64,000 nucleotides of DNA from positions 1 to 64,000 of the forward strand of contig JAJRPJ010000010.1 of assembly GCA_024280835.1 (NCBI GenBank). Direction: 5' to 3'. The position numbers and the translations under genes were made by a program. Positions 29,287-46,142 of this stretch are shown piece by piece. The stretch comes from Candidatus Zixiibacteriota bacterium. GTDB lineage: Bacteria; Zixibacteria; MSB-5A5; GN15; JACZUZ01. The first letter of the stretch is position 1. Each line of letters begins with the position of its first letter. A model generated the notes under the pieces. That model was not told the DNA's origin and ran no database searches. It saw only the letters and a list, made by a program, of their open reading frames with translations.

Positions 29287-29734
29287 ATCGATTTTTTGAG
29301 TTAAAAGCTGATTTGTTTCGAGCTTTGCGGGCCAATTGTTGGCTATACGGCTTTTGGGGGTTTTTCTCAGATTTGAGATACTGTCTCAGAAGCTTGTAAA
29401 ATGCCAGAAATTGCGTAGATTATCTCTGGCGCTGGGCTTTTACGATGGCGCTGATTATTGGCTCTTTTCGGTCGATATATGTAAGAAAGGTGAGGCGCTG
29501 AGAAGTTAATTTTGGGGCTAGGATTAGTGGTAAGATTGCCATAGTTGATTTTGCGACCTTGTTATTACCTTTCGTTGGTATGTTGGATCGGCGCTGTTGA
29601 ATTCTCCCTAGCGGAAACGAAGACCGCAAAGGAAGATGTTTGACTCAAGAGTGAGTTTCTGGGGTCTGGTTACTAATGTTTTTTTCAGTTGTTGTATTCA
29701 GTGTGAATTTTCATTGAAAAGGGGAATAACTAAT

Positions 29735-31693
29735 ATGTCAACATCAAATACAAAACCTCCGTTTCCTGGGATCTCCGCCACACGCGATGGGAGCGAGGCG
29801 GTTGTTTGGGTAGAGACACATGCTTCGACAGGCGCGGCGACTTATCCGATTACGCCATCAAGCTCGATGGGAGCTGGGTATCAAGTGGCGGTGGCCAATG
29901 GGCGCAAGAACCTTTGGGGTGATAGTCTTGTCTTTCTTGAGCCAGAGAGCGAACATTCCGCTGCCAGTGTATGTGAGGGCTATGCTGCAGCAGGTGGTCG
30001 AGTTGTCAATTTCACTTCTGGTCAAGGCTTGATGCTGATGAAAGAAGTTCTTTACACTATTGCTGGGAAACGTCTGCCGATGGTTTTCAATATTGGCGCT
30101 CGTGCGATGACGGTTCATTCGCTTAATGTGCATGCGGGTCATGATGATGTCATGGGTGTTGCTGATTGTGGTTGGGGGATTATTTTTGCCTGCAATGCGC
30201 AAGAGGCGGCGGACTTTTGTTTGATTTCACGGCGGACAGCCGAAGAGTCGCATACGCCATATTTTAGTGTGCAGGATGGTTTTCTAACCACGCATACAGT
30301 TGAGGATATGCTTCTGCCTGAGCCAGAGTTAATCAAGACCTATCTTAAGTCGCCAAAAGAGGCGCTGGTCAATCTGATTGATCCTGAGAATCCGATTATG
30401 AGTGGCACTGTGCAGAATCAGGATGCTTATATGCGTGGCAAGATTGCGCAGCGGGCTTATTATGGGCAAATCAAGGATAATCTAAAGGCCAACTTCGAGG
30501 AGTTCTATCGGCTGACTGGTCGTAAGTATGGCTTGATTGAGACCTATCGGATGGATGACGCGAAATATGCGATAGTCGGGATGGGCTCTTATATGGAGAC
30601 GGCCAAAGCGACAGTTGATGCGATTAGGAAGCGTGATGGTATCAAAGTCGGTGTGGTGACTGTGCGTTCATATCGCCCATTCCCAGGACCAGAGTTGGTT
30701 GAGGCTCTTAAGAACGTTGAAGTGATTTCGGTTTTGGAGCGGATGGATGATTCTGCATCGCCAGAGAATCCATTAGCGCGCGATATTAAGTCGGCTTTTG
30801 CTGACGCTCTTTGGGGGCATGAAGATTACCTTGAGATTTCTAGGATGCCAGTTTTGCAACATGGCGCTGGTGGCTTGGGTAGTTTTGATGTTCGGGCTGG
30901 GGATTTTCAGGCGATAATCGAAAATATGAAACGCGGCAAAGATGGCAATATTCGTTATTGCATCGGAATTCGTCATGATGATGCTTTAGTGGCTCCCGCT
31001 GAAGAAGTTGATTTGCGGACAGATGGATATTTTGCGATGCGTGGATATTCGATTGGTGGTTTTGGTTCTGTGACGACCAATAAGATTATCGCTTCTGTTT
31101 GCGCTGACTTGTTCGGTTCAAGTGTTCAGGCTTATCCGAAATATGGCGCAGAGAAAAAGGGCATGCCGACGATGTATTTCTTGGCGGTTAGTGACAGCCA
31201 TATTCAAAGTCATCAAGAATTGAAGCTTGTTGATTTTGTGGCTATCAATGATATCAATGTTTTTCGTAGTGGCAATCCGTTGGATGGTTTGAGTGAGGGT
31301 GGCGCGGTCTTTATGCAGACTTCGCAAACTTCCCCTGAGGCTATTTGGGATGAGTTGCCATTGGCCACGCGCGAAGAGATGAAGCATAAGAGTGTTCGGC
31401 TGTATGGTTTGGATGCGACAAAAATTGCTCGTGATATCGCTCGCAATGTGGATTTGATACATCGTATGCAGGGAATTATCCTGCTGGGTGTGTTCCTGAA
31501 AGTAACTCCATTGGCCGCGGCGCATGGTTTCAATGAAGAGCAGGCGTTGAGCGGTGTTGAGGAGATTGTTAGAAAGTATTTTGGTAAGCGCGGCGAGAAA
31601 GCCGTCGAGGACAATATGACCTGTATTCGCAAAGGATACCAAGAGGTGATTGAAGTCCCGTTGAATTTACAAGTTTTGCAAGGGGGCAAATAG
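29735..31693 (+). CDS. pyruvate:ferredoxin oxidoreductase (NifJ-like), alpha-gamma part
   Basis: 652 residues from the ATG at 29735, picked because AAAAGGGG lies 10 nt upstream and homology begins directly after; the frame is open to 29636 but that extension looks unlike the family. Domain I carries TYPITPSSSMGAGYQVA (thiamine/CoA site); domain II and the gamma-like domain III (GYFAMRGYSIGGFGSVTTNK) follow. With the next gene it makes a NifJ-type enzyme split into two chains: 2-oxoacid plus CoA to acyl-CoA, CO2 and reduced ferredoxin, or the reverse. Pyruvate is the likeliest substrate. Confidence 0.88.
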   Translation: MSTSNTKPPFPGISATRDGSEAVVWVETHASTGAATYPITPSSSMGAGYQVAVANGRKNLWGDSLVFLEPESEHSAASVCEGYAAAGGRVVNFTSGQGLMLMKEVLYTIAGKRLPMVFNIGARAMTVHSLNVHAGHDDVMGVADCGWGIIFACNAQEAADFCLISRRTAEESHTPYFSVQDGFLTTHTVEDMLLPEPELIKTYLKSPKEALVNLIDPENPIMSGTVQNQDAYMRGKIAQRAYYGQIKDNLKANFEEFYRLTGRKYGLIETYRMDDAKYAIVGMGSYMETAKATVDAIRKRDGIKVGVVTVRSYRPFPGPELVEALKNVEVISVLERMDDSASPENPLARDIKSAFADALWGHEDYLEISRMPVLQHGAGGLGSFDVRAGDFQAIIENMKRGKDGNIRYCIGIRHDDALVAPAEEVDLRTDGYFAMRGYSIGGFGSVTTNKIIASVCADLFGSSVQAYPKYGAEKKGMPTMYFLAVSDSHIQSHQELKLVDFVAINDINVFRSGNPLDGLSEGGAVFMQTSQTSPEAIWDELPLATREEMKHKSVRLYGLDATKIARDIARNVDLIHRMQGIILLGVFLKVTPLAAAHGFNEEQALSGVEEIVRKYFGKRGEKAVEDNMTCIRKGYQEVIEVPLNLQVLQGGK

Positions 31694-31694
31694 A

Positions 31695-33374
31695 ATGGCA
31701 ACGCAGGATATATCGTCTAAGAATAATCCTTCTCAGGATGTATCATCAAAAAAGCCAGAACCCGCAGTGAAAGATGCTGTGAAAGATAAGGCGGTTGGGG
31801 CTAAGGGTGGCAATCATCCTATAGACTTACATAGTTTCCAAGATAAAGTATTGTCGCCATATCTTCAGGGTCAGGGCGATCATGGTGTCGTGGCTGATGA
31901 GCTTGCGGCGCGCTCTTTGATGCCGCCGAACACAGCTAGCCAACGTAGCTTTGCTTTTGTTGGCTCTGAAATCCCAGTTGTTCACGCTGAGAATTGTGTG
32001 GCTTGTATGGAGTGTATCATCGTTTGCCCTGATATTGCGATTCGCTCAAGAGGCGTTACAGAGGAAAAACTTGAGTCCGCTTTGAATAACATCTCTGATG
32101 AAAGCGCCCGTTCGGGTATGCGTGATCAATTTGTCAAAACTCGCAAGCTTTGGAAATCCTTTGAGAAAAAGGGTGAAGAGCCAGCGTATTTTTCACTCTG
32201 GATTGATCCTGATAGATGCAAAGGTTGCGGTGTTTGTGTTGAGGTTTGTGGCTCGCGCGATGCTTTGAGTATGCGTGATAAGAGTCCAGAGCAGATGGAG
32301 AGTTATGCCGAGGGTGTGGATTTTGTGAAGCGAGAGTTTCCACCGACTCCGCAGGAGTATATTAGTGAAAAACGTCTTACTGATCAGTATATGAGTGAGA
32401 GCTGTTGGGTTAGTGACGGTGGCGCTGGTTCTTGCGCCGGTTGTGGTGAAATTACTGCTATCAACATGGCTTTGACCGCCACTTCAATTAAGTATGGCAA
32501 GAATATGGCGATTGTCGCTTCGACAGGTTGTAACACAGTTTATAGTTCGACCTATCCTTATAATATTTTTGATGTGCCATGGACGAACTCACTGTTTGAA
32601 AATGGGCCGACCACGGCGATGGGTGTGCGGATGCGTCTTGATCAAGAGGGCAAGAAAGATACGAAGCTATGGGTCTTTGGTGGTGATGGCGCGATGTTTG
32701 ATATTGGGTTTCAGGCGTTGTCACGTTTGCTAGCTTCGGATATGAATATCAATGTCTTGGTGCTTGACACACAAGCGTATTCAAATACAGGCGGTCAGGC
32801 CTCGACAGCGACGTTCTTAGGTCAAAACGCCAAGATGAGTGTGCATGGAACAGAGATTCCAGGTAAGATGGATAGACGTAAAGAACTGGGATTGATTGCG
32901 ATGAATCATCCTGACGTATTTGTGGCGCAGATTTCTCCGTCATACTACAATCACTATCTCAAGACAGTGCTGGCGGCGCTTGAATATCCGGGTCCTTCGG
33001 TGTTGATTGCCTATTCGTCATGTACACCAGAGCATCAAATTGCTGATAATATGACTTTCCAAGCGGGCATCTCGGCGGTTAATAGCCGTGCTTTCCCATT
33101 GTATGTTTATGACCCGCGCAATGGTGAGACATTCAAAGAGCGTTTGGAATTAAAAGCCAATCCGTCATTCAAGAAGGATTGGCATGTCGATGAAAAAACT
33201 GGTGAGAGAATTACACAGGATTTTGTTTGGTTCGCCCGTAGTGAGGGTCGTTTTGCTAAGCAGTTTGACAAAGACGGGAAGCCTTCGGAGACTTTATTGG
33301 CCTCACAGAATGACCGATTGCGGAATTGGCATATTTTACAAGAGCTTGCTGGGGTGCTTAAGCCAGCCAGCTAG
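31695..33374 (+). CDS. pyruvate:ferredoxin oxidoreductase (NifJ-like), ferredoxin-beta part
   Basis: 559 residues. An N-terminal Lys/Ser-rich tail (1-45) precedes two [4Fe-4S] motifs, CVACMECIIVCP and CKGCGVCVEVCG (the last lacking the usual Pro). The beta domain follows, with CAGCGE, STGCNTVYSSTYPYNIFDVPW, GDGAMFDIGFQALSRLLA and LDTQAYSNTGGQ, binding thiamine diphosphate and the proximal cluster. Start is 1 nt after the alpha-gamma gene. Together they equal a whole NifJ cut at the domain III/IV border. A strong terminator follows 70 nt later. Confidence 0.9.
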   Translation: MATQDISSKNNPSQDVSSKKPEPAVKDAVKDKAVGAKGGNHPIDLHSFQDKVLSPYLQGQGDHGVVADELAARSLMPPNTASQRSFAFVGSEIPVVHAENCVACMECIIVCPDIAIRSRGVTEEKLESALNNISDESARSGMRDQFVKTRKLWKSFEKKGEEPAYFSLWIDPDRCKGCGVCVEVCGSRDALSMRDKSPEQMESYAEGVDFVKREFPPTPQEYISEKRLTDQYMSESCWVSDGGAGSCAGCGEITAINMALTATSIKYGKNMAIVASTGCNTVYSSTYPYNIFDVPWTNSLFENGPTTAMGVRMRLDQEGKKDTKLWVFGGDGAMFDIGFQALSRLLASDMNINVLVLDTQAYSNTGGQASTATFLGQNAKMSVHGTEIPGKMDRRKELGLIAMNHPDVFVAQISPSYYNHYLKTVLAALEYPGPSVLIAYSSCTPEHQIADNMTFQAGISAVNSRAFPLYVYDPRNGETFKERLELKANPSFKKDWHVDEKTGERITQDFVWFARSEGRFAKQFDKDGKPSETLLASQNDRLRNWHILQELAGVLKPAS

Positions 33375-33444
33375 TGTTAGGTCGACAATTGTGTTCATTT
33401 GTGTTGTTGAATGACTAGCATGAGTTTTATAATTATTACAATTA

Positions 33445-33479
33445 GACACCGAGCGCAACTTTGCGCTCGGTGTCTTTTT
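33445..33479 (+). terminator. rho-independent terminator after the PFOR operon
   Basis: GACACCGAGCGCAA / TTGCGCTCGGTGTC perfect 14-bp arms (minimal loop CT), followed by five T. Confidence 0.9.
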
Positions 33480-33937: not shown

Positions 33938-35254
33938 ATGTCACTAGAGCAAATAATATATGTCGGAGCGGTTTTTCTATGCGGCTTAGTAGTTCGGTCG
34001 TATTGGAAGAAGAGTTTTGGGCACACTCAGGATGCTCAAGAAAAGCTGTCCAAGTCTGTTACTGACGGACTGACTGAGCCTGTTTCGCTTCATCCGGAAA
34101 TTAACGCTCAGCAATGTATTTGCGCTGGCGCCTGTTTGAGCGCTTGTCCTGAAGGTGGCATTATTGGTATTGTTAACGGTAAGGCCGAATTAGTGTCACC
34201 AACGAAGTGTATTGGTCATGGAGCCTGCTTGGACGCCTGTCCAGTTGGAGCGATAAAACTAGTTTTTGGAACTGCTCGCCGTGGTGTAGATATTCCAGCC
34301 GTCAAAGAGACATTTGAGACAAATGTTCCAGGGATATATATCGCTGGTGAATTAGGTGGGATGGGTTTGATTCGGAATGCAGTCACGCAAGGCAAGCAAG
34401 CGATGGATTATATTGTCAAAGCTGGTCGGCGCTCGAATAATGGAATTCATGATGTGCTGATAGTCGGCGCAGGGCCCGCTGGGATTGCTGCGACATTGCA
34501 GGCTAAGAAACTTGGGTTGAAGTATATCACAGTTGAGCAGGAAGATGTTGGTGGGGCGGCTTTGAGTTATCCACGACAGAAGTTGGTGATGACACAGCCA
34601 ATGGATATTCCGTTGTATGGGAAAGTTAAGTTCAAAGAGATAATTAAAGAGGACTTGCTTGAACTTTGGGAAAAGGTGATGACGACCGCTGAAATCGAAG
34701 TGCAGACCGAAGAGAAGGTTGAAGACATCAAGCGGTCCAATGGTCATTTTGAAATTGTTACCAGTAAGACTACTCATGAGGCGTTGAATGTTTTGCTGGC
34801 GATTGGGCGGCGCGGGACTCCACGCAAGCTTGGTGTTAGCGGCGAACGTTCCTCGAAAGTTGCTTATAAGCTCATTGAACCAGAGCAATACAAAGGCATG
34901 AAATTACTGGTTGTTGGCGGTGGCAATAGCGCCGCTGAAGGCGCTTTGGCTCTTGGTGAGCAGGAGGGGACAGAGGTGACACTCGCTTGCCGCGGTCAGG
35001 CGCTTGAGGCTGCGAATGCCGAGAATCGTGAAAAAGTTCAACGAGCGATTGATGCGGGTTGGTTGCGGTTTATTCCAGAGTGCGGTGTTAAAGAAATACA
35101 AGAAGAGATTGTTATACTTGAAAAGTTGAATGACACCAAAGAAATTATAGCAATTGAGAACCAATATACTTTTGCTTTTATCGGGGGGATACTCCCGACA
35201 GGATTTTTGAATCAAATCGGAATTGAGGTAGTGACGAAGTATGGCGAGCAATAA
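33938..35254 (+). CDS. membrane-anchored Fe-S/FAD/NAD(P) oxidoreductase
   Basis: 438 residues. Residues about 5-21 form one transmembrane helix. Then two 4Fe-4S-like motifs, CICAGACLSACPEGG and CIGHGACLDACPVGA; in the second, His stands where the second Cys of CxxCxxCxxxCP is expected, and in the first that position is Ala with an extra Cys one place earlier. Thioredoxin-reductase-like FAD (VLIVGAGPAGIAATLQA) and NAD(P) (LLVVGGGNSAAEGALALG) sites follow, with a C-terminal FAD segment (FAFIGGILPTGFL). It probably passes electrons between a soluble reductant and the cytochrome-b-like protein encoded next (14-nt overlap). No CxxC redox disulfide of thioredoxin reductase is present. Confidence 0.85.
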   Translation: MSLEQIIYVGAVFLCGLVVRSYWKKSFGHTQDAQEKLSKSVTDGLTEPVSLHPEINAQQCICAGACLSACPEGGIIGIVNGKAELVSPTKCIGHGACLDACPVGAIKLVFGTARRGVDIPAVKETFETNVPGIYIAGELGGMGLIRNAVTQGKQAMDYIVKAGRRSNNGIHDVLIVGAGPAGIAATLQAKKLGLKYITVEQEDVGGAALSYPRQKLVMTQPMDIPLYGKVKFKEIIKEDLLELWEKVMTTAEIEVQTEEKVEDIKRSNGHFEIVTSKTTHEALNVLLAIGRRGTPRKLGVSGERSSKVAYKLIEPEQYKGMKLLVVGGGNSAAEGALALGEQEGTEVTLACRGQALEAANAENREKVQRAIDAGWLRFIPECGVKEIQEEIVILEKLNDTKEIIAIENQYTFAFIGGILPTGFLNQIGIEVVTKYGEQ

Positions 35255-36128
35255 ACGCGACGTATTCACTTTGGTGATGACCTTGCTCTATGCGGTTTCA
35301 CTGACATTGATTGTTGTGGCCTTTGTTTCTGGTTGGGTGTATTACTCAGCTCCACTTATTGATCGTCCGCGACTGGAAATGCACACAATGCTGAAGCCCG
35401 GTGGCCTTTGGGGGCATGGGTATGGGATCGTCGGAAGCACGATGATAATGTTGCTGTTTTTGTATTCATTGCGTAAGCGACAGAAGTTTGGGATCCGTTG
35501 GGGCAAGACAAGTAAATGGTTGGCAGTACATATTTACTTCGGAATTGTGGGGCCACTGTTGGTGACTTTGCATACGGCCTTTAAGTTTAATGGCATTGTT
35601 TCGATAGGGTACTATTCGATGTTGGCAGTGATGTTTAGCGGTGTTTTCGGGCGGTATATTTATATTCAAATTCCTCGAGGCGCTCAAGGAGCTGAGCTGG
35701 AGTTGGGAGATATTAAGTCAGCTAGTGATTCACTGGAGGCGATTTTGCGAGAGACCTATGGTCTTTCAGAAACATCACTGAATATGCTCAATTCGTTTTC
35801 GGAGTCAGGAGCGGCGGCAGAAAATGCTGGTGTTAAAGCCATGTTTGCAATCGCCCTGAATGATATTAAGCGCCCTTTGCGTTTTCGTCAATTGAGGAGG
35901 CAGATTCAGCGTGACACACCTGATATTCCGCCAAGGGCAATTGCTGAGGCGATGAAACTTGCGCGTCGTAAAGCATTGCTTGAGAGGAGATGCGCATACT
36001 TGGATACTTTTGTTAAGCTCTTTCATTATTGGCATGTAATCCACAAGCCGTTTGCTTATATCATGGTGGGAGTTGTGATTTTGCATGTGCTAGTGACTGT
36101 GTTGCTTGGTTATCGCTGGATATTTTAG
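35241..36128 (+). CDS. cytochrome-b-like membrane protein
   Basis: 295 residues with about five membrane helices (near 10-32, 58-76, 90-115, 118-137, 265-290) and a charged cytoplasmic or periplasmic region (about 140-255) between the last two. Histidines in VHIYFGIVGPLLVTLHTAF and in HYWHVIHKPFAYIMVGVVILHVL are spaced as axial ligands of two b hemes, as in ferric-reductase or cytochrome b561-like proteins. It is the likely quinone or trans-membrane step between the FAD protein and the multiheme cytochromes. The start lies inside the previous gene. Confidence 0.75.
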   Translation: MASNKRDVFTLVMTLLYAVSLTLIVVAFVSGWVYYSAPLIDRPRLEMHTMLKPGGLWGHGYGIVGSTMIMLLFLYSLRKRQKFGIRWGKTSKWLAVHIYFGIVGPLLVTLHTAFKFNGIVSIGYYSMLAVMFSGVFGRYIYIQIPRGAQGAELELGDIKSASDSLEAILRETYGLSETSLNMLNSFSESGAAAENAGVKAMFAIALNDIKRPLRFRQLRRQIQRDTPDIPPRAIAEAMKLARRKALLERRCAYLDTFVKLFHYWHVIHKPFAYIMVGVVILHVLVTVLLGYRWIF

Positions 36129-36156
36129 ACGAGATGTGCTTAGAAAAGCTAGAGAG

Positions 36157-37929
36157 ATGACAGGAACACAGGAAAGATTACACCAAAGAGCGCTCCAGAC
36201 TGCTACCCAGATGGTGGCGCTAATTATTGGACTTGTTCTCTGGCAAATATTGAGCGCGAGAGTTGCGCAGGCGCAATTGTCCCCTGGTGATTTGGCCGCG
36301 CCACATTCCGCATTTGAAGGATTGACGAATTGCACCGAGTGTCATGAGATTGGTAAGGGGCCCAGCGCTGATAAATGTTTGAGTTGTCATACAGGTGTGA
36401 AGGCTTCTATTGAAACGGAGAAAGGTTATCACTATCGAGTTGTTAAGCAGGACAAGCGCGCTTGTTTTTCGTGCCATAGTGATCATTCGGGCAAAGAGTT
36501 CAAGTTGATACATTGGGAAAACGGCATTGAGAAGTTTGAGCATCAATTGGCTGGCTATGCTCTCAAGGGCAAGCACGAAAGCTTGGAATGCCGTAATTGC
36601 CACAAACCTGATTTTGCAAAGACTGAGTTCTTGTTGGCGCATCAGCAAGTGAATTTGAGCAAGACGTTCTTGGGTTTAACGGATAACTGCTTGAGCTGTC
36701 ATGGCGATGAGCATCGGGGGCAATTAGGCGCTGATTGTCAGAACTGTCATGGCTCGGATCATTGGACTCCAGCGAGAGGCTTTGAGCATGACAAGGCGAA
36801 GTTTACTTTGGTTGGCAAACACGCTACTGTCCAGTGCCAAAAGTGCCATAAGCCTCTTAATGACAGGGTCGTTATTTCTCCAGCAGGAGTCTCAGATAGC
36901 GCTTATAGTGAGTTTACAGGTTTGAGTTTTGGAAAGTGTGTGTCTTGCCACACGGATCCACATCAGAGTAAGCTGGGCGATGATTGTTTGAAATGTCATA
37001 GTCAAAAGGCTTGGTCTCCAGCTAGTGGATTTGATCATAGTTCGACGAAATTTGCATTGACTGGTAAGCACAAGAGTGTGCTTTGTGAAAAATGTCACAA
37101 AAGTGTTGGCGCTCAGAAAGTTTCTAGTGGTAAGAGCGGAAAAGTCGAAGATGCTTTTGCGGCCTACAAGGGATTGGAATTTGGAACCTGTGAGTCGTGT
37201 CATACTGATGTGCATCAGGCGAAGCTGGGTAAGGATTGCCAAAGTTGTCACAAAACTAATGGTTGGAACTCTTTGAAGAGCAATAGTTTTGACCACGGCA
37301 AAACAGAATATCCGTTACTTGGTAAGCACAAGGCAGTGAAGTGTCAGAGTTGCCATAAGACTGGTGTCAAAGATGCGAAGACGCTCAAATCGGAGCATTG
37401 TACGGATTGTCATTCTGACACGCATAAGGGTCAATTTGCTGATAGGTCAGATGGCGGAGCTTGCGAGAGTTGCCACACTGTGTCTGGATTTGCGCCGTCG
37501 CAGTTCACAATTGAACGTCACAACCAAGAGAGCGCTTTCAAGTTGGCAGGAGCGCATTTGGCGCAACCCTGTCCGATTTGTCATGTGACACCCAAGAAAG
37601 GGAAGGGCGCCAAGGTTATGAAGTTTAGTTTTGAGAAGACCGATTGCGTGGCGTGCCATTCAGATATTCACTTTGGGCAATTCACTGTCACAAGTCCCGA
37701 GAAAGGCTGTGTTGATTGTCACGGCGCCGATGCTTGGCAAGAATTAGTATTCGATCATAATCGTGATTCGAAGTATGTCCTAGAAGGTGCGCACGCACAG
37801 ACCTTGTGTCAAAATTGCCACAAGACAGAGAAGCGGAAGGGTAAGCGCTTTGTGCGTTACCGTCCATTGGATAGCGCTTGCAAGAGCTGTCATTCACTTG
37901 AGACATTGGAATTGTTGAAGCAGAAATAG
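36157..37929 (+). CDS. 20-heme cytochrome c
   Basis: About 590 residues from the ATG at 36157, 28 nt after the previous stop; a TTG at 36106 would add 17 residues from inside the previous gene and is unlikely. A signal anchor follows (MVALIIGLVLWQILSARVAQAQ). I count 20 CxxCH heme motifs spread through the chain (CTECH first, CKSCH last) with many extra His as distal ligands. The repeated pattern FDHxxTxxxLxGKHxxVxCxxCHK marks a repeated cytochrome c3/NrfB-like unit. Probably periplasmic, or inserted in the outer-membrane barrel encoded downstream, and carrying electrons outward. Confidence 0.88.
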   Translation: MTGTQERLHQRALQTATQMVALIIGLVLWQILSARVAQAQLSPGDLAAPHSAFEGLTNCTECHEIGKGPSADKCLSCHTGVKASIETEKGYHYRVVKQDKRACFSCHSDHSGKEFKLIHWENGIEKFEHQLAGYALKGKHESLECRNCHKPDFAKTEFLLAHQQVNLSKTFLGLTDNCLSCHGDEHRGQLGADCQNCHGSDHWTPARGFEHDKAKFTLVGKHATVQCQKCHKPLNDRVVISPAGVSDSAYSEFTGLSFGKCVSCHTDPHQSKLGDDCLKCHSQKAWSPASGFDHSSTKFALTGKHKSVLCEKCHKSVGAQKVSSGKSGKVEDAFAAYKGLEFGTCESCHTDVHQAKLGKDCQSCHKTNGWNSLKSNSFDHGKTEYPLLGKHKAVKCQSCHKTGVKDAKTLKSEHCTDCHSDTHKGQFADRSDGGACESCHTVSGFAPSQFTIERHNQESAFKLAGAHLAQPCPICHVTPKKGKGAKVMKFSFEKTDCVACHSDIHFGQFTVTSPEKGCVDCHGADAWQELVFDHNRDSKYVLEGAHAQTLCQNCHKTEKRKGKRFVRYRPLDSACKSCHSLETLELLKQK

Positions 37930-37959
37930 AAGTCAGACTTTGTGACGGGATAGAAGGCT

Positions 37960-39159
37960 ATGAATATAAAGAAGAACATGTTGTTTATCATTGTGCCTTT
38001 GGCTTTGATGTCGATGGTGGCGATTATGGTTGCTCACGCGAGTACATCAAAGAATCCGCATAAGAATCTGAAATTCGATTGTGAGAAGTGCCATAGCGCT
38101 GCGTCGTTTACAGATATTCGTTTCGATCATGATCTGACTGGCCATCAGCTGGATGAGAATCATGCCAAGGCGGATTGTTTGGGTTGTCATGTTGTCGAAG
38201 ACTTTAGCCGCGCTAATGAGGACTGCGCGGTGTGTCATGAGGATATTCATGAGGCAAAGATGGGGAACGATTGCGAGAGTTGCCATACATCTTCGCGTGG
38301 TTGGAATATAATGGATATACAGACGATTCATATGGCGTCGAATTTTCCGGCGATGGGTCGCCATGCTTTGCTTGACTGCCAGAATTGTCACCCTGGGCTG
38401 CCGCGAGAGGATTTGTCATTCAATACGACACGAGGTGTTGAATGTCATCAGCAAGATTATCTGAATGTCGTCTCGCCGAATCATATCACAGGTGGCTTTA
38501 CTACTGAATGTCAGGATTGCCATCAAATGAATTTATGGCAACCTGCGGTTCTGGCCGATCATGATCCTTTCTTTCCAATCTATTCAGGATCTCATCGTGG
38601 ACAATGGGATCAATGTGCAACCTGTCACACTAATACTACCAACAATAGAGATTTCAGTTGTCTCAATTGTCATGGTCATCCACAAACACAGACAGACAGT
38701 GACCATCAGGGAATTAGCGGGTATGTTTACAATAGTCAGGATTGTTATCTGTGTCATCCTACTGGCGAGACGGGTTCATTTGGAGATCATGATGTCCAGT
38801 TCTTTCCAATATTTTCTGGGTCGCACGCCAATCAGTGGAGTGATTGTGTTGAATGCCACACTGACCCGAATCTTCGTAAGGTCTTCGACTGTTTGTCCTG
38901 CCATCCAAATCCTGGGACTGACGCTACTCATCAAGGCATGGCTGGGTACAGTTTTGACAGTCCCAATTGTTTGAGTTGTCACCCAGATGGAACTAAAGGA
39001 AAATTTGTTGATCATGACGCACAGTTATTCCCGATTTTTTCGGGGACACATTTGAATACTTGGAATGAATGCTCAGAGTGTCATAACGTTCCAACTGACA
39101 GGAAAGTCTTTGACTGTCTTTCCTGCCATCCAAACCCTAGCTCTGATGCTACTCATTAA
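37960..39159 (+). CDS. multiheme cytochrome c, ended early by an in-frame TAA
   Basis: 399 residues to the stop at 39157-39159. Signal peptide (MLFIIVPLALMSMVAIMVAHAS) followed by 14 CxxCH motifs and one degenerate GVECH. From about residue 185 the chain is built of roughly 70-residue repeats (DHDxxFFPIFSGSHxxxWxxCxxCH ... FDCLSCHPNPxxDATHQG). In the last repeat the Gln codon CAA of DATHQGM is TAA, and the same frame then continues with the repeat to 39459. The product is therefore either truncated, made by readthrough, or the stop is an assembly or sequencing error. ATG at 37960, 30 nt after the 20-heme gene. Confidence 0.8.
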   Translation: MNIKKNMLFIIVPLALMSMVAIMVAHASTSKNPHKNLKFDCEKCHSAASFTDIRFDHDLTGHQLDENHAKADCLGCHVVEDFSRANEDCAVCHEDIHEAKMGNDCESCHTSSRGWNIMDIQTIHMASNFPAMGRHALLDCQNCHPGLPREDLSFNTTRGVECHQQDYLNVVSPNHITGGFTTECQDCHQMNLWQPAVLADHDPFFPIYSGSHRGQWDQCATCHTNTTNNRDFSCLNCHGHPQTQTDSDHQGISGYVYNSQDCYLCHPTGETGSFGDHDVQFFPIFSGSHANQWSDCVECHTDPNLRKVFDCLSCHPNPGTDATHQGMAGYSFDSPNCLSCHPDGTKGKFVDHDAQLFPIFSGTHLNTWNECSECHNVPTDRKVFDCLSCHPNPSSDATH

Positions 39160-39162
39160 GGG

Positions 39163-39459
39163 ATGCCTGGGTATAGTTTTGATAGTCCTACTTGTCTGAG
39201 TTGCCATCCCGATGGCAAGAAAGGAAAGTTTACTGATCATGACGCTGCCTTCTTTCCGATTTATTCGAACAAGCATAATGGTGAGTGGAACGAGTGCGCT
39301 GATTGTCATACGCAACCGCAGCAGAGGTCATTTTTCACGTGTTTAGAAGGGTGTCATGAGCATAGGCTGTCAAAGATGGATGACAAACACAAATCAATTA
39401 ATGGTTATGCGTCTGATGGGCCGACTTGTATCGGATGTCATCCAAACGGAAGAAAGTAG
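39163..39459 (+). pseudogene. in-frame C-terminal continuation of the multiheme cytochrome
   Basis: 98 codons in the same frame as the preceding cytochrome, beginning one codon (GGG) after its TAA. Starts GMPGYSFDSPTCLSCHPDG, the exact continuation of the upstream repeat. Holds three further CxxCH motifs (CLSCH, CADCH, CIGCH) and a CLEGCH, a Cx3CH variant. It has no ribosome-binding site or signal peptide of its own, so it is not an independent gene. Intact, the full protein would have about 499 residues and 17 canonical heme sites. Confidence 0.75.
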
Positions 39460-39475
39460 AGATGAGGAGAGGTGT

Positions 39476-41110
39476 ATGCGAAAGCTTTGTTTAGTGTTAC
39501 ACAAATCATCGATAGTCTTCGCTCTGCTGTTTGTTGGTGTGTTTGTCACAGTCAGTAGCGCTTTGGCAGCTCCCAAAGCTAAAGTTACATACTTGGCCTC
39601 GGAGGCTGTATACATAAATGCTGGCACAAAATCGGGATTGACTATTGGCGATACGTTAGTAGTGACAAGAAAGGCAGATACACTGGCGATTGTGATGGTC
39701 AAGAGTGTTTCAGGCTCTTCTGCGGCTTGTGTTTTGTTAAAAACATTTGGAGAAATTAAAGTTGGGGATGTTTTGCCGCTGTCGGCATTCAAGAAAACTA
39801 GCAACTTGGAAAAATCCTATTCGGGGAGAGATGTTGCTAGTGGCTCTGAGGCGACGAAAGGGACAAAGCTCAAGTCACGAAGATCTAGAAATGCGCCGAA
39901 TGTGGTTTCTGGTGGAGTCTCTATTGAAAATCTATATCGAAAAGATCTAACTGGATCAAAGTTGTCATCTAACCAAGCTGGGATTCGTAGTCGTGTGATT
40001 GTTAAGGATATCAATGGCAGTGGTATTCGATTCGAATTGCGTCATCGCTCACGTTTGTATCAACGCTCGCGGTCAGTTGGAGCGAATCTGGAGACTGATG
40101 AGTGGTCGCATCAGGTTTATCGCTTGGGGATTACTTATGGGGATAGTCAGTCTCCAGTTAGTTGGGGTTTCGGCCGGATGCTGGTTCCGTATGTGCGAGG
40201 GATGGGGTATGTTGATGGAGCGTTCTATCTTCGTAGAGTTAGTGACAAATTGAGTGTTGGTTTTGCAGGAGGAGCAACACCTAATGCGCAAACATCGGGT
40301 TTGCAATTAGAGCGTGTGAAATTGGGGGCTTTTGTGCGTTACGAAGTTGGTGACGCTGGAGTGCAGAGGTTGTCATTGACAGGTTCATTAACTTCCGAGA
40401 CCGAGTCGTTTTCGGTTAGTCGTGATTTCTTGTATGTTCAGAGCAGATACACTCACGGTAGATGGATTTCCTTGAATCAGTCGTTTGAACTAGAAATCAA
40501 TCGAGGGTGGAGACGTGATGTTAGTGGTAAGAGCTTTGAAGTTAGCAATTATTTCGGAACTGTGAATCTGAGTGTCTTATCTGATGCAAATGTCTATGTG
40601 ACATATGACTCGCGGAGAAACATACGCCGTTTTGATAATGCTGAGACTCCTGATAGTTTGTTTGATAATTCTACCCATCGTGGAGTTCGCGGCGGTTTTC
40701 GTATACGCGCGCGCAAGAATCTTCGTTTTCACGGTAATCTTGGTTTGAGACTCCGTGGCGAAAGCATCGGCAACAATACGTTTGCGTCATTTGGAGCGCG
40801 GCTCAATCGTTTCCCAAGGCGTGGGCATTCGTTGGCGCTCAATATGTCTTATGTTCAGACACAATTTACAACTGGCTACAGGCCGAATGTGACTTATCGC
40901 TTTCCGATAGGTAGGCGGACACGTGTTTATTTGACTGGTTCGCTGTACACTTATAAGACAGGCACAACGACCGTTTCGAATTATTATCTAGATCTAGGCG
41001 CTTCTCGTCCGCTAGGTAAACGCTATTTCTTTACTGGCAGTTATCGTCAGTATTTTGACAGCGCCTTGCAATCTGGTGAATTGTATACCGAAATCGGCCT
41101 ACGACTGTAA
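39476..41110 (+). CDS. outer-membrane beta-barrel protein of the cytochrome cluster
   Basis: About 544 residues from the ATG at 39476 (AGGAGAGG just upstream); the longer frame from 39356 lies inside the cytochrome. Signal peptide ends VTVSSALAAP. Residues about 35-110 form a small beta domain (VTYLASEAVYINAGTKSGLTIGDTLVV). The remainder is long alternating hydrophobic/polar strands with aromatic girdles (RLGITYGDSQSPVSWGFG, YFFTGSYRQYF) and ends ELYTEIGLRL, typical of a barrel. Placed directly after two multiheme cytochromes, it fits the porin part of a porin-cytochrome conduit, although similarity to MtrB/PioB cannot be claimed by eye. Confidence 0.75.
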   Translation: MRKLCLVLHKSSIVFALLFVGVFVTVSSALAAPKAKVTYLASEAVYINAGTKSGLTIGDTLVVTRKADTLAIVMVKSVSGSSAACVLLKTFGEIKVGDVLPLSAFKKTSNLEKSYSGRDVASGSEATKGTKLKSRRSRNAPNVVSGGVSIENLYRKDLTGSKLSSNQAGIRSRVIVKDINGSGIRFELRHRSRLYQRSRSVGANLETDEWSHQVYRLGITYGDSQSPVSWGFGRMLVPYVRGMGYVDGAFYLRRVSDKLSVGFAGGATPNAQTSGLQLERVKLGAFVRYEVGDAGVQRLSLTGSLTSETESFSVSRDFLYVQSRYTHGRWISLNQSFELEINRGWRRDVSGKSFEVSNYFGTVNLSVLSDANVYVTYDSRRNIRRFDNAETPDSLFDNSTHRGVRGGFRIRARKNLRFHGNLGLRLRGESIGNNTFASFGARLNRFPRRGHSLALNMSYVQTQFTTGYRPNVTYRFPIGRRTRVYLTGSLYTYKTGTTTVSNYYLDLGASRPLGKRYFFTGSYRQYFDSALQSGELYTEIGLRL

Positions 41111-41149: not shown

Positions 41150-43447
41150 CTACTGTCCCGTTGTACCACAAATTGGAGCTGGGCCGCCGCCGAAGACCCT
41201 ACCTATTCCATAGGTGATATCAGCTATGTTGAAAGTATTGTCTCCGTTGCTGTCGGCTTCGTCTAGACATGCTGGAGCTGGACCTGAATTGAATATTCGA
41301 GCAATACCGAATGTAACATCGGCGATGTTGAATGCGCCGTTGCCATCTGCATCTCCAGGTGTCACACAGCAAGAAGCAATCGCGATAAGGGATGGTGTGT
41401 ACTGTGGCAGGAATCCAGCAGCGCTAGCTCCCCTTGCAGTTGGGTTCGGGGTAAATCCTGCACTAATTACCAGCGGATACAATGATGTATCAGGGTAATT
41501 ATCTGACAGTGGTTGAATAGGTGATATTGCTTTCCAGTCAATAGTGACGGTACGTTCAAAGGGAACTGGGTCGACTGTCAGATGCATGATTCCGAGATTG
41601 TGGAAACCACTCGCAACACTGTCTGACCAATTCACGAAACCGTAGGCGGCTATCAAGGCAATGCCAGAGCTGTCGATTATTCGAAGCGCCTCTCTTGGTT
41701 CCATGTTCCATGTGTTCCAGGCATCAAGAGAATTAAAAACTACAGAGTCGATTGTAGGTATGGTTCCACCAACCTTGACTCTTAGCGGGAAATTAAATCC
41801 AATGACGTTAACGAGATTCCTAAGGGTCAAGCGCACAGTTATGTCAGTTTGATTTGGCCCGACTCGATTATTGTAGATGAGGGAAATAGTTGTATCGATG
41901 TTGCTAAAAGGCGGGTTCGCCGGTGGACATGTCGGCAGTGGGCCTGCATCAAAAATATATGAGCGGATTGCGACGATATCTCGAAGTGTGATAAGGCGGT
42001 AACCGTCTCCATCGGCGCTGACTGGAACTTGAGGCGCGTTTCCTCCGAAGTAGAGGTAGTCCCAAATCTCAACCACATCAACAATGTTTAATACACCGTC
42101 ACCAGATGCGTCACCTGGGAAATCGCAGCTGTCTGGACACAAGCCATTTCCAAATGCAATTGTTGGGCACTCATCACACATATCACCAAAGCCATCACCA
42201 TCAGTGTCGTCTTGGTTCGGGTTGACGGTATTGGGGCAATTGTCGCAAAGGTCGCCGAGTCCGTCTCCGTCAGCGTCTATTTGGGCGGGGTTGAAAGTCA
42301 CTGGGCAATTATCAGCTACTCCCGCTAGGCAATCTCCATCGGTTTCTGAATTGTTATCAAAATTGGGACAATCGTCGCAGACATCACCGACACCGTCGCC
42401 ATCGGCGTCTGCTTGGTCTGGATTGGGAGTCAGGACACAGTTGTCCGCAAAATCCAGTATTCCGTCACTATCAAGATCGCTGTTGTCGCAGGCATCGCCG
42501 AGTCCGTCATTGTCTCCGTCGTTTTGGTTAGGATTAAAAGTATTCGGACAATTATCACAGACATCTGGTCTGCCATCATTGTCGCTGTCTGGTGGAGACG
42601 GCGCTCCTGTTGTGTCGTCATTGCAGGTGACTGGACTGATAGCGCCGTTCAGATAGGGTTCCCAGTGAGAAATTGGGTCTAGTTCGACACCGAGAAGTGT
42701 CGGGGTAATAGAACAATCTGGAAAGGGAGCATTGGTTGGTGAAACTGCCGCCCAGGAGATTTCTATGTTTCTGTGGGCTGGTACCATCGGTAGCGTAATA
42801 TCAATTTCTGCCAAAGCTCCCGTATGTGGAGATTGGGGAACAAAATCAAGGTGGCCAATCATGACGATTCCAGAATCGGGAAATATACGGAAACGATTAG
42901 GCAATGAACCGCTCCAATCGAACCCATTCACCCGCACTGCTGAAATAGTTGGTATGGCTCCGTCGACGCGAATTCTCAAAGGGAATGAGTAGCCGATTGA
43001 CTCAATACTTGTGGACAGGTCCACATGCAAGGTTATTGTAGTCGCTCCAGCAAGTAATATGCTTTCCTGCACAGAGAGATTGACGCCTGGGTCACGAAGA
43101 ATTGGAGGTGGAGTTAAATCAGTGCAGGGGCATCCAAGGGCTGGCCCGCCACGGAATATCATGTTGAGCGTGTGTTGAGCATCGCCGATAGTAGCTTGGG
43201 GTACACCGTCGACAGCTTCAGCGAAGACCATGTCTGCTGGCGCCGGGCCATCGATAAAAAGGTATGAGAGCCAAGTTGTAAAGTCAGCTATATCGTTTTT
43301 CCCATCATTGTTAACATCACCGCAAATGGTCTGCGCTCGTGTATTCTCAGGAATGAGTGTCAGTAGCGAAAAGATGACAAATATTCCCAAGGGCAGCAAG
43401 AATTTGAAAGTTCTAGCATGTGAGGGCCGAGTATTTAGTTTACGCAT
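41150..43447 (-). CDS. secreted cohesin-like / thrombospondin type 3 / dockerin-like protein
   Basis: 765 residues. Signal peptide (FLLPLGIFVIFSLLTLIPENTRAQ). A first dockerin-like calcium unit (CGDVNNDGKNDIADFTTWLSYLF), then a beta-sandwich resembling cohesin (about 120-260). About six thrombospondin type 3 calcium repeats follow (DxDxDGxGDxCDNCP), a second dockerin-like pair (GDASGDGVLNIVDVVEIWDYLY), a second cohesin-like sandwich, and a C-terminal doubled dockerin motif (GDADGNGAFNIADVTFGIAR ... SNGDNTFNIADITYGIGR) ending CGTTGQ. Extracellular or surface-bound; function unknown, probably adhesive or structural. It converges on the barrel gene with 39 nt between. Confidence 0.85.
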   Translation of the reverse strand: MRKLNTRPSHARTFKFLLPLGIFVIFSLLTLIPENTRAQTICGDVNNDGKNDIADFTTWLSYLFIDGPAPADMVFAEAVDGVPQATIGDAQHTLNMIFRGGPALGCPCTDLTPPPILRDPGVNLSVQESILLAGATTITLHVDLSTSIESIGYSFPLRIRVDGAIPTISAVRVNGFDWSGSLPNRFRIFPDSGIVMIGHLDFVPQSPHTGALAEIDITLPMVPAHRNIEISWAAVSPTNAPFPDCSITPTLLGVELDPISHWEPYLNGAISPVTCNDDTTGAPSPPDSDNDGRPDVCDNCPNTFNPNQNDGDNDGLGDACDNSDLDSDGILDFADNCVLTPNPDQADADGDGVGDVCDDCPNFDNNSETDGDCLAGVADNCPVTFNPAQIDADGDGLGDLCDNCPNTVNPNQDDTDGDGFGDMCDECPTIAFGNGLCPDSCDFPGDASGDGVLNIVDVVEIWDYLYFGGNAPQVPVSADGDGYRLITLRDIVAIRSYIFDAGPLPTCPPANPPFSNIDTTISLIYNNRVGPNQTDITVRLTLRNLVNVIGFNFPLRVKVGGTIPTIDSVVFNSLDAWNTWNMEPREALRIIDSSGIALIAAYGFVNWSDSVASGFHNLGIMHLTVDPVPFERTVTIDWKAISPIQPLSDNYPDTSLYPLVISAGFTPNPTARGASAAGFLPQYTPSLIAIASCCVTPGDADGNGAFNIADVTFGIARIFNSGPAPACLDEADSNGDNTFNIADITYGIGRVFGGGPAPICGTTGQ

Positions 43448-43583
43448 GATGTGTTTCCCTTCCTGAGGTAAGTAGGGTTAGTCCAGGCATGGACAGTTAT
43501 GAGACCACAATTGACAACTTACATTCAGGACCCTTTTTTAGCAAGGGCTAATTCTATGTTTTCAATCAATACTAGATTAAATG

Positions 43584-46142
43584 CTAGATCCCTGTTGTGC
43601 CGCAGACTGGCGCAGGGCCTGAGTTGAAGATTCGGGCTATGCCATAGGTTACATCGGCGACGTTGAATGAGTTGTCGCCGTTGGCATCGGCTTCGTCCTG
43701 ACAGATTGGGGCTGAACCTGAGTTGAAAATTCGCGCTATTCCAGCGGTGACATCGGCAATATTAAAAGAGCCATTATTGTCATAGTCGCCAGCAACTACG
43801 CAACATGATGTTGGTGGCACATCAATTGTGGTTGAATACATGGAGCGACCGTGCGTTCCCGCTACTAGCTTTCCAGTGGCTGGGTGAAAGTCGATGTCAT
43901 GCACTGGCAGAATTGGTAGGCCAGTTCCGAGTGGAGCCCAAGTTGTTCCCAGGTCAGCGGTTTCATAGACGCCGATGTCTGTGCCGATGATTAACGCCAG
44001 TGAGTCGAAGGGTGACGGAATGATGTCATTGATTGGAGCATCAGGGAAGTTGCCACTGATGTCTGTCCACGTCGCGCCGAAGTCTTCGGTGCGGAAGATG
44101 TGGGGCAATGATGAACCCGAGAGGTATCCCGAGACTGTTACATAGGCGATATTGGCTTGGCGTGGGTCTGTGGCGACACGGGTTATCCAACGGTCAGGAA
44201 TAGCTGCATCAATTTGCGTCCAACTGCCGCCGCCGTTTTGTGTGACCCAGACGTTACCATCGTCTGTACCAACATAAACAACTTGATTATCGGTCTTAGC
44301 GGGAGAGATGGTTGTAATTACCCCGAAACTGCTACGTGGGTGGGGGGCATCAGATAGGTCGGCGCTAATAGCTGTCCAATTAGCTGCGCCGTCAGTAGTT
44401 TTGTAGAGACCCTCCGAGCCGTAATATAATGTCAGATTGTCATTGGGGTCCATGGCGATAGGTGTACTCCAAGCATGGCGCTCGCCGTTAAAATTCATTC
44501 CGTTACGCGCCGCGGTCCAACTGGCGCCGCCGTTGAAAGTTTTGACTAGCCAGCCATTTTGGCTTTCAGCATAAATTATGTCGGGATCGGTGGGGTCGAC
44601 GATGACATAGAAGCCGTCACCACCCCAGATTCTTGTCCAGTCACCGGTAGCGCCAGTGAGTGTGCGTAGTGTGCCATTGTCCTGTGTACCACCGTAGAGA
44701 CGTTCAGGATTGGTGGGGTCGATTGTGATAGCGTAGAATTGTGTTGAGGGTTGTCCGATGCGCACAGCCCAAGTTAGGCCGCCGTCACTCGAGAAATTAA
44801 CACCACCATCGCAGCCTGAATACATCACTTGTGGATTGGCCGGGTCTATCCAGAGAGCGTGTTGGTCGACGTGAATACTTGCTGAGCGCCAATCCCAACT
44901 GTCGCCTGAGGTAGCTGTGCGATAGATATCAAAACCAAGCGCGAAGACGATTGATGGGTCACTTTGTGCGACACGCGTTTGGCCAAAATACCACCCACCG
45001 CCCCAACTGGCGTTCAGTGGCGCATTGACTAGGTCATTGTCAATAGTTCTGCTCCAGGTCAATCCTTGATCGATACTTTTGTAGAATCCGTCATAGGCGC
45101 CACTACTGGTTGCCAAGAGCGCGTAGGCGGTTGTTCCTGAGCTGACAGCGGTTAGGCCGATTCTTCCGTTTAAGTCTGATGGGTCAAGTAGGCCGTCGAG
45201 GGAGGTGAGTAGTGTCCAAGTTTCACCTAAATCTGATGAGCGATAGATACCAGTTGTGATTCCGCCGAGTCGGGAAGGTTCGTCGACGAGACGTACGCGC
45301 TCCCACATTGCGGCAATGACTACACCAGTGGCAGGAAAGAGGACTACGTCTATACAGCCAGTAGTATCTGAGACAAACAATTTGTTGGTCCAGTTGGCGC
45401 CGCCATCGTCCGAGCGGTAGAGACCACCTGCGCCATTGCCTCCGCCAAAATGCTGGCCACCGACGGCGACGAAGATACGGTCGGAGTTTGTTGGGTCAAC
45501 TACGATTCTGGCGATACGGCGACTGTCTGGCAGGCCCATATTGGTAAAGGTTGTTCCGCCATCGGTGGATTTGTAGATCCCATCACCTTCATAGGTGTCG
45601 AAAGCTGGGTTTGATTCGCCTGTTCCAACATAAATCACTGATGAATTGTTGGGATCAATAGCGATGTCACCGACTGAATAGCTACCGTAATTATCGAAAA
45701 TTTGCGTCCAAGAATTACCGCTATCGGTAGATTTGAAAACTCCACCTGCAGCGCTGCCTGCGTAGACAGTTGAGATGTTTCCAGCTACAGCTTCGACATC
45801 GACAATACGCCCAGGGATATTGGTGGGTCCGGCAGGTACCCAAACAGGTGGAGCTGAGGCGCTGCGTCGAAGCTTTGAATTGGCCGCGAGTTTTAGGTTT
45901 TCGGCAACGGCGAATTTTAAGCTCGCTTGTCGTTTGGCCTGTGAGATTGTGTCGTATGGGAAAGAGCGTTGGACATAGAACCAGTCACTCGGGCGTTTGC
46001 CAGGAGGTTTGGGATATTTTTGGGCTGGTTCACTGAATGCCAGCTGATTAGCGTTGTCGACTGTATTAGAAGTTTTCCAGAGAGATATGGAGGCGCCACC
46101 GAGGATAACTAACGCTGCTACAAAATAGATTCGTTTATTCAT
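43584..46142 (-). CDS. secreted BNR/sialidase-like beta-propeller protein with dockerin C-terminus
   Basis: 852 residues. N-terminal signal segment (YFVAALVILGGASISLW), then a long series of BNR/Asp-box repeats (S-x-D-x-G-x-T/S-W, for example STDSGNSWTQI, SDDGGANWTN, SSDLGETWTLL, SSDGGLTWAV, TEDFGATWTDI), as in VPS10/sortilin-type or plant photosystem-assembly-like propellers. The C-terminus is the same doubled dockerin-like unit (GDYDNNGSFNIADVTAGIAR ... ANGDNSFNVADVTYGIAR) ending CGTTGI as in the neighbouring gene. Surface or secreted; no catalytic residues of a true sialidase were identified. Confidence 0.88.
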   Translation of the reverse strand: MNKRIYFVAALVILGGASISLWKTSNTVDNANQLAFSEPAQKYPKPPGKRPSDWFYVQRSFPYDTISQAKRQASLKFAVAENLKLAANSKLRRSASAPPVWVPAGPTNIPGRIVDVEAVAGNISTVYAGSAAGGVFKSTDSGNSWTQIFDNYGSYSVGDIAIDPNNSSVIYVGTGESNPAFDTYEGDGIYKSTDGGTTFTNMGLPDSRRIARIVVDPTNSDRIFVAVGGQHFGGGNGAGGLYRSDDGGANWTNKLFVSDTTGCIDVVLFPATGVVIAAMWERVRLVDEPSRLGGITTGIYRSSDLGETWTLLTSLDGLLDPSDLNGRIGLTAVSSGTTAYALLATSSGAYDGFYKSIDQGLTWSRTIDNDLVNAPLNASWGGGWYFGQTRVAQSDPSIVFALGFDIYRTATSGDSWDWRSASIHVDQHALWIDPANPQVMYSGCDGGVNFSSDGGLTWAVRIGQPSTQFYAITIDPTNPERLYGGTQDNGTLRTLTGATGDWTRIWGGDGFYVIVDPTDPDIIYAESQNGWLVKTFNGGASWTAARNGMNFNGERHAWSTPIAMDPNDNLTLYYGSEGLYKTTDGAANWTAISADLSDAPHPRSSFGVITTISPAKTDNQVVYVGTDDGNVWVTQNGGGSWTQIDAAIPDRWITRVATDPRQANIAYVTVSGYLSGSSLPHIFRTEDFGATWTDISGNFPDAPINDIIPSPFDSLALIIGTDIGVYETADLGTTWAPLGTGLPILPVHDIDFHPATGKLVAGTHGRSMYSTTIDVPPTSCCVVAGDYDNNGSFNIADVTAGIARIFNSGSAPICQDEADANGDNSFNVADVTYGIARIFNSGPAPVCGTTGI

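Follow-up and report, generated by a model that had tools for sequence, protein, structure and literature searches.

Known surface conduits such as Mtr and Pcc are fed by the quinone pool, and their inner-membrane step is often encoded elsewhere; the Pcc systems of Geobacter pair an OmbB-type porin with cytochromes of 8 and 12 hemes. The closest described system to the locus reported here is PCC3, a putative porin–cytochrome c complex whose inner-membrane protein was modelled as quinone-active (He et al. 2017, PMC5566968) and for whose multiheme cytochromes (MHCs) a survey of the Gallionellaceae gave long, linear models (PMC10734462). We analysed a 64,000-nucleotide stretch of a Candidatus Zixiibacteriota genome (contig JAJRPJ010000010.1, positions 1 to 64,000; hereafter the window), in which five genes on the forward strand at 33938–41110 encode a reductase (RED), an inner-membrane cytochrome b (CYB), two MHCs (MHC1 and MHC2) and an outer-membrane barrel (BAR). 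The unit looks like a PCC3-type porin–cytochrome conduit, a putative assignment made from described features. We consider it probable that the operon is a trans-envelope electron conduit of this type with its own cytoplasmic input enzyme; what is new here is that a cytoplasmic flavin/Fe-S reductase, whose FAD domain is circularly permuted, is conserved as part of such a unit.

Organization of the five-gene unit

An earlier note on this DNA had claimed five same-strand genes at this location, and all are present there with the domain content that it gave (Table 1). Pfam assigns 4Fe-4S dicluster and Pyr_redox domains to RED and cytochrome c7/c3 domains to both MHCs, and returns almost nothing for CYB and chance matches only for BAR. 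RED and CYB share 14 bp, MHC1 begins within the end of CYB unless it starts at an alternative ATG at 36157, MHC1 and MHC2 are separated by 30 bp, and BAR begins 16 bp past the end of the MHC2 frame; with coding regions either overlapping or no more than 30 bp apart, the arrangement fits a single operon.

Table 1. Coordinates of the five-gene unit, its upstream terminator and the stand-alone MHC2–BAR pairs. Positions are those of the window unless a locus is named.
Feature	Coordinates	Strand	Remarks
Intrinsic terminator	33444..33475	+	Perfect 14-pair stem, 9 GC, T-rich tail; ends upstream 2-oxoacid:acceptor oxidoreductase operon
RED, membrane-anchored FAD/NAD(P)/2x[Fe-S] oxidoreductase, 438 aa	33938..35254	+	Pfam, NCBIfam, phmmer
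CYB, five-TM di-heme cytochrome b, 295 aa	35241..36128	+	Motifs, AlphaFold2 model
MHC1, 20-heme c-type cytochrome	36106..37929	+	20 CXXCH, Cytochrome_C7
MHC2, exported repeat-bearing multiheme cytochrome, 399 aa, 14 CXXCH	37960..39159	+	Frame up to in-frame TAA
In-frame TAA stop in MHC2	39157..39159	+	CAG in sister species, CAA in preceding repeat copy
MHC2 frame after stop	39160..39459	+	3 CXXCH and one CXXXCH; 75% identity to sister C-terminus, dN 0.155
Whole MHC2 frame, read through TAA	37960–39459	+	17 CXXCH
BAR, outer-membrane protein, 544 aa	39476..41110	+	AlphaFold2, homologs
Stand-alone MHC2–BAR two-gene units	L103 6968–11596; L104 5917–11386; L105 5505–9270		36, 48 and 27 hemes; no reductase or cytochrome b

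Features shared with PCC3

PCC3 as described (PMC5566968, PMC10734462) has a porin, a large periplasmic MHC of about 21 hemes with a low residue-to-heme ratio, and a second, extracellular MHC that carries repeats and varies in heme number; the window unit resembles it in its predicted porin and its large MHC1, and MHC2 is a candidate counterpart of the second MHC. CYB also bears the signature of the PCC3 inner-membrane protein, namely a length of about 300 residues, five transmembrane (TM) helices, an SGXXG motif in TM4 and WX3HX13H in both TM3 and TM5. These motifs are W93xxxH97x13H111, S133GVFG137 and W264xxxH268x13H282 in CYB, and all four histidines of the two pairs are invariant across 54 aligned sequences; the AlphaFold2 model is confident and helical (pLDDT 89.5, pTM 0.82). 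MHC1 contains the 20 CXXCH motifs that the earlier note had counted, slightly under the published PCC3 figure (about 21, with a range of 21–27 hemes and 22–39 residues per heme), and has about 28 residues per heme. The count is 20 in 33 and 17 in 14 of its 53 full-length homologs. Both MHCs have export signals, a point on which the earlier note had made its reading depend, that of MHC1 being a Sec signal (...ARVAQA/QLSPG). MHC2 carries repeats and is putatively at the surface, and second cytochromes at the same place in related units have from about 8 to more than 70 CXXCH motifs.

BAR lies next to MHC2 in all contexts read, so that, as in PCC3, a barrel porin is encoded beside the MHCs. The protein comprises a signal peptide, a small beta domain (residues ~31–101), a disordered linker, and a barrel (143–543), with ...YTEIGLRL at the C-terminus of the protein, and structure prediction with 26 homologs gives 22 strands (pLDDT 80.4, pTM 0.60), in agreement with the outer-membrane barrel first suggested. 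Published PCC3 porins have up to 42 strands. The window-type unit differs further from PCC3 as described in containing the conserved FAD/NAD(P)/Fe-S reductase, and in its hosts, which belong to the FCB group and other phyla, in contrast to the Proteobacteria that carry PCC3. Plasmid searches yielded no proteobacterial PCC3, only the Emticicia unit described below and related short cytochrome b and FHA-decaheme systems.

The reductase has a permuted FAD domain

RED begins with a TM segment followed by a Lys-rich stretch that would lie on the cytoplasmic side, and then a ferredoxin domain (residues ~53–106). In its remaining part the C-terminal FAD segment of the YpdA/thioredoxin reductase fold (~122–160) precedes the GxGxxG Rossmann part (172–434). 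When RED was compared with the YpdA-family protein Bdr (7a7b) by phmmer, residues 173–434 aligned with Bdr 6–267 and residues 122–140 with Bdr 276–294; the second match is weak alone (4.2 bits), but the aligned family never varies at its G137, E138 and G141. Because the order of the Bdr matches is reversed, the FAD segment has moved to the front, and on this alignment the FAD domain of RED is circularly permuted. The FAD and NAD(P) Rossmann folds of the two proteins align across about 260 residues, and RED differs from the YpdA/thioredoxin reductase family in the position of the FAD segment ahead of the FAD domain, in the added ferredoxin domain and TM segment, and in lacking a conserved redox-active disulfide motif. 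We rejected its identification as a YpdA bacillithiol disulfide reductase, for which the NCBIfam model TIGR04018 scores 155.8 bits, under its cut-off of 339.9, and the domain order is permuted. No description of a permuted thioredoxin reductase with a ferredoxin domain was found in the literature searched.

The ferredoxin domain (RED residues 60–101, window 34115–34241) has a second cluster motif of the form C-xx-H-xx-C-xxx-CP, and a histidine replaces a cysteine in this 4Fe-4S motif in 55 of 56 family members. In the first motif the second cysteine is not at its usual place in 16 of the 56 sequences, including that of the window. As read from these motifs, cluster ligation in the RED family is unusual.

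Conservation and linkage

A scan for CYB relatives with one genome per species gave 67 database loci, with phylum labels as recorded for metagenome-assembled genomes (MAGs), some of which may be mis-binned. The labels are Zixibacteria, KSB1, Calditrichota, Fidelibacterota (Marinimicrobia), Ignavibacteriota, Bacteroidota, Kryptoniota, Eisenbacteria, Latescibacterota, Fibrobacterota, Margulisbacteria, Acidobacteriota, Gemmatimonadota and Abyssobacteria. A record titled as a Bifidobacterium breve MAG (L077) has the same cytochrome system, groups with the Acidobacteria and is probably mis-binned. Conserved gene content and order, which the earlier note had suggested looking for, were found in related units of about a dozen phyla, with three gene orders: RED-CYB-MHC1-MHC2-BAR in the clade of the window, and CYB-MHC1-MHC2-BAR-RED or CYB-RED-MHC1-...-BAR elsewhere. 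In a tree of CYB the RED-CYB order of the window's clade forms one supported group, and the order changes at least four times.

We then determined linkage among 133 genomes of the window's phylum, with hypergeometric probabilities calculated before correction for kinship. CYB was strong in 26 genomes and present as a contig-end fragment in one more, full-length RED in 29, and BAR in 33. RED was found in all 27 genomes with CYB, and BAR in all 29 with RED, where 7.2 would be expected (p ~1e-25 without kinship correction). The genes share a contig in 23 (CYB-RED), 20 (CYB-BAR) and 26 (RED-BAR) cases, always within 10 kb, and the exceptions have the parts on separate contigs of fragmented assemblies. 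The five-gene unit thus occurs far beyond chance.

BAR is found without RED in four of these genomes, and as a second copy in a fifth. In the three stand-alone contexts that we read, an MHC2 homolog is directly upstream (Table 1), so the barrel adjoins a large multiheme cytochrome even in genomes without RED and CYB, and the link between barrel and cytochromes that was initially proposed holds. These pairs indicate that MHC2-BAR can stand as an independent module, to which RED-CYB-MHC1 is joined.

A complete unit is present in a cultured aerobe, Emticicia oligotrophica DSM 17448, on plasmid pEMTOL02 (L097 5878–17676; EMTOL_RS21085–21110). Its MHCs have 23 and 40 hemes, and a gene for cytochrome c maturation, a ResB-CcsA fusion, lies just ahead of it. 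The literature searched contained nothing linking Emticicia to extracellular electron transfer, and no paper describing the unit in Zixibacteria or Marinimicrobia. A study of hadal sediment scored Zixibacteria and relatives as likely metal reducers through other porin-cytochrome markers (PMC10809760).

In the Acidobacteria the position of RED is taken by an unrelated membrane protein with FAD_binding_6, NAD_binding_1 and Fer2 domains (FAD, NAD and 2Fe-2S; L070 8558–9901, L072 and L074), and these units have a different large candidate outer-membrane protein. In Legionella an FAD-binding oxidoreductase stands beside a short 'iron reductase' and a cytochrome c3. That the reductase slot is refilled in both groups argues for flavin/Fe-S input at this position. 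Similar trios occur outside PCC3, in decaheme systems of Sphingobium and Zixibacteria with an FAD/4Fe-4S protein and in this Legionella set. A more distant system (L095 3388–15538 and L098 6171–11519) has a cytochrome b of the same kind, a 10-heme cytochrome, which in L098 bears an FHA domain, and an FAD-containing oxidoreductase; no barrel was found in it.

MHC2 carries an in-frame stop and lacks a conserved heme site

The second cytochrome had been described as of a 17-heme type, and this number is obtained when the frame is read through the TAA at 39157, but it is not one open frame: 14 CXXCH motifs precede the stop and three follow it. MHC2 of the sister species (L017) has 18. A second difference is a cysteine to glycine change in the window (GGT, codon 38434–38436), which removes a CXXCH kept in all 11 aligned orthologs and not lost in the sister. 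Nonsynonymous divergence (dN) from the sister is 0.135 before the stop and alike after it (Table 1), which suggests that the stop arose recently, varies between strains or stems from an assembly error. MHC2 in the window strain may be impaired, damaged or mis-assembled. The open frame at 39163–39459 was considered as a separate gene and rejected, being the in-frame rest of MHC2 with no signal; reassignment of the stop codon was likewise rejected, since other genes end on standard stops and nothing supports it.

Relationship to other conduits

The initial comparison with Mtr, Pio and Pcc systems holds for the combination of multiheme cytochromes with a barrel; it does not hold for the family, which is neither Mtr, Pio nor Pcc (OmbB) and instead resembles PCC3. 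MtrCAB, MtoAB and PioAB likewise have a barrel and a multiheme cytochrome spanning the outer membrane. No MtrB/PioB-family barrel was found for BAR in Pfam at E up to 0.1, and against the NCBIfam DmsE/MtrA family MHC1 scores 50.3 bits and MHC2 22.5 bits (cut-off 192.2). We rejected membership of Mtr/Mto/Pio on these grounds and because MHC1, with 20 hemes, is not a decaheme cytochrome. The Geobacter OmbB-OmaB-OmcB (Pcc) and Ext conduits similarly encode a periplasmic MHC, a porin and an outer MHC together, and, going by NCBIfam names, a b-type cytochrome Fe-S subunit is also encoded in the Ext operon for selenite/tellurite. Matches of the window unit to ExtN and ExtO are at noise level (E ~0.01), the cytochromes have 20 and 17/18 hemes, a count on which we rejected membership of Geobacter Pcc, and the quinone-linked inner-membrane partners in Geobacter, ImcH and CbcL, are of another type than CYB. 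PCC4 (PMC5566968) has an inner-membrane protein with the same motifs as CYB, a porin, MHCs and further redox genes (in subgroup II one of these is an Fe-S gene), but its MHCs are three small ones, with 4, 5 and 10 hemes, and it lacks an extracellular one.

RED-CYB resembles the NADPH oxidases and ferric reductases (NOX/FRD) in its two HX13H pairs, which would hold a stack of two b hemes, and in a cytoplasmic NAD(P)H/FAD input, a likeness in how it would work only. It is unlike them in that the flavoprotein is separate, unrelated and equipped with Fe-S clusters, and in that electrons would continue to c hemes. The ferric-reductase TM domain (PF01794) has no Pfam match in CYB, and CYB was rejected as a NOX/FRD member, the HX13H spacing alone being shared and neither sequence nor fold matching.

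Flanking genes

Just upstream of the unit are genes for the alpha and beta subunits of a 2-oxoacid:acceptor oxidoreductase (29636–33374). More than 500 bp and a strong terminator separate them from RED and they are not adjacent in the sister species, so we rejected them as part of the operon. On the minus strand at 41150–46142 are genes for two large secreted proteins with dockerin-like stretches of the FNIADVTYGIARIFNSGPAP type, one of which has sortilin-like repeats.

Electron route and alternatives

A route consistent with these data would begin in the cytoplasm with a low-potential donor, NAD(P)H or some other, which would reduce the FAD of RED; with RED docked to CYB, electrons would pass from its pair of Fe-S clusters to the two b hemes stacked in CYB and so across the inner membrane. 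MHC1 would serve as a wire across the periplasm, and MHC2, in or on the BAR barrel, would conduct electrons past the outer membrane, where Fe(III), Mn(IV), humics or another cell could accept them, if the proteins form a complex and localise as predicted. The earlier suggestion that the whole path from cytoplasm to surface is encoded together is supported by the conserved gene content and by the PCC3 signature in CYB. Several observations weigh against this route. CYB has no PDB fold match (Foldseek gave none with E <0.6) and its NOX/FRD likeness is one of motifs only; BAR has no homolog of known function, a sequence search against solved structures gave nothing, and Foldseek returned generic barrels, the best being the FimD usher (TM-score 0.43, a likeness of shape only), with MtrB absent from the best 50. 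The second cysteine of RED cluster I is missing or shifted in the window's clade, and SYRKxxFxRxK, a basic motif after the NAD(P) loop that nearly all RED homologs keep, is ACRGxALEAAN in the window and sister species, which makes the nucleotide used by RED in that genus uncertain. To these are added the stop and lost heme site of MHC2, and the down-regulation of PCC3 on Fe(II) in Sideroxydans ES-1 (PMC8788666); in CL21 its expression was above average (PMC12442390).

The source of the electrons could instead be the menaquinone pool, with which CYB would exchange electrons while RED is accessory, regulatory or quinone-reducing rather than the direct donor. Exchange with this pool was the proposal of He et al., whose model of the PCC3 inner-membrane protein is quinone-active and whose PCC3 clusters list no reductase (PMC5566968). 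The cytochromes b with HX13H in two helices include quinone enzymes. Against this, no genome of the phylum has CYB without a flavin/Fe-S enzyme, and an unrelated one substitutes in the Acidobacteria, which argues that CYB trades electrons with cytoplasmic carriers. This points to an NAD(P)-linked rather than a purely quinone-linked input, and we regard the menaquinone alternative as unlikely. We favour outward flow, since electrons moving inward to NAD(P)+ would have to go uphill. A conduit passing electrons inward, from extracellular Fe(II), Mn(II) or other cells through RED to NAD(P)+ or an Fe-S acceptor, would suit the Fe(II) and Mn(II) oxidisers among proteobacterial PCC3 hosts, aerobes such as Emticicia and Lacihabitans that carry the unit, and the COX1 oxidase in the window's own genome. 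It seems distinctly improbable to us, as electrons from Fe(II) would have to climb steeply to reach NAD(P)+ and to move against the membrane potential, and PCC3 was down-regulated on Fe(II) in Sideroxydans ES-1.

It could also be that the operon is decaying in the window strain, the two changes in MHC2 disabling its outer part, and that the unit works in relatives, as the intact sister gene and the retention of the heme site in 11 orthologs might suggest. The four other genes are however intact and conserved (dN 0.08–0.26, with synonymous sites saturated), dN past the stop equals that before it, MHC2 homologs with 16 hemes exist, and an assembly error within a repeat is possible; we doubt that decay is the explanation. 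The broader form of the conduit reading, which we put forward tentatively, as a real possibility rather than the expected outcome, is of a quinone-independent cytoplasm-to-surface conduit driven by NAD(P)H or ferredoxin, encoded in one operon in about a dozen phyla, with an undescribed permuted His-Fe-S flavoprotein as its input and separable inner and outer modules.

Implications

Outward flow from NAD(P)H, if it occurs, would depolarise the membrane as NADPH oxidases do, which suggests a role in redox balancing more than in energy conservation. If the proposed route is correct, the unit lets cells pass metabolic electrons directly from NAD(P)H to the outside, and RED would give PCC3, the function of which has been in question since 2017, a first input that can be put to the test. 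Markers from the unit could be used to score uncultured lineages such as Zixibacteria, Calditrichota, Marinimicrobia and Ignavibacteria for extracellular electron transfer, and a conduit role could be tested directly in Emticicia oligotrophica DSM 17448, a cultured type strain with a complete copy.

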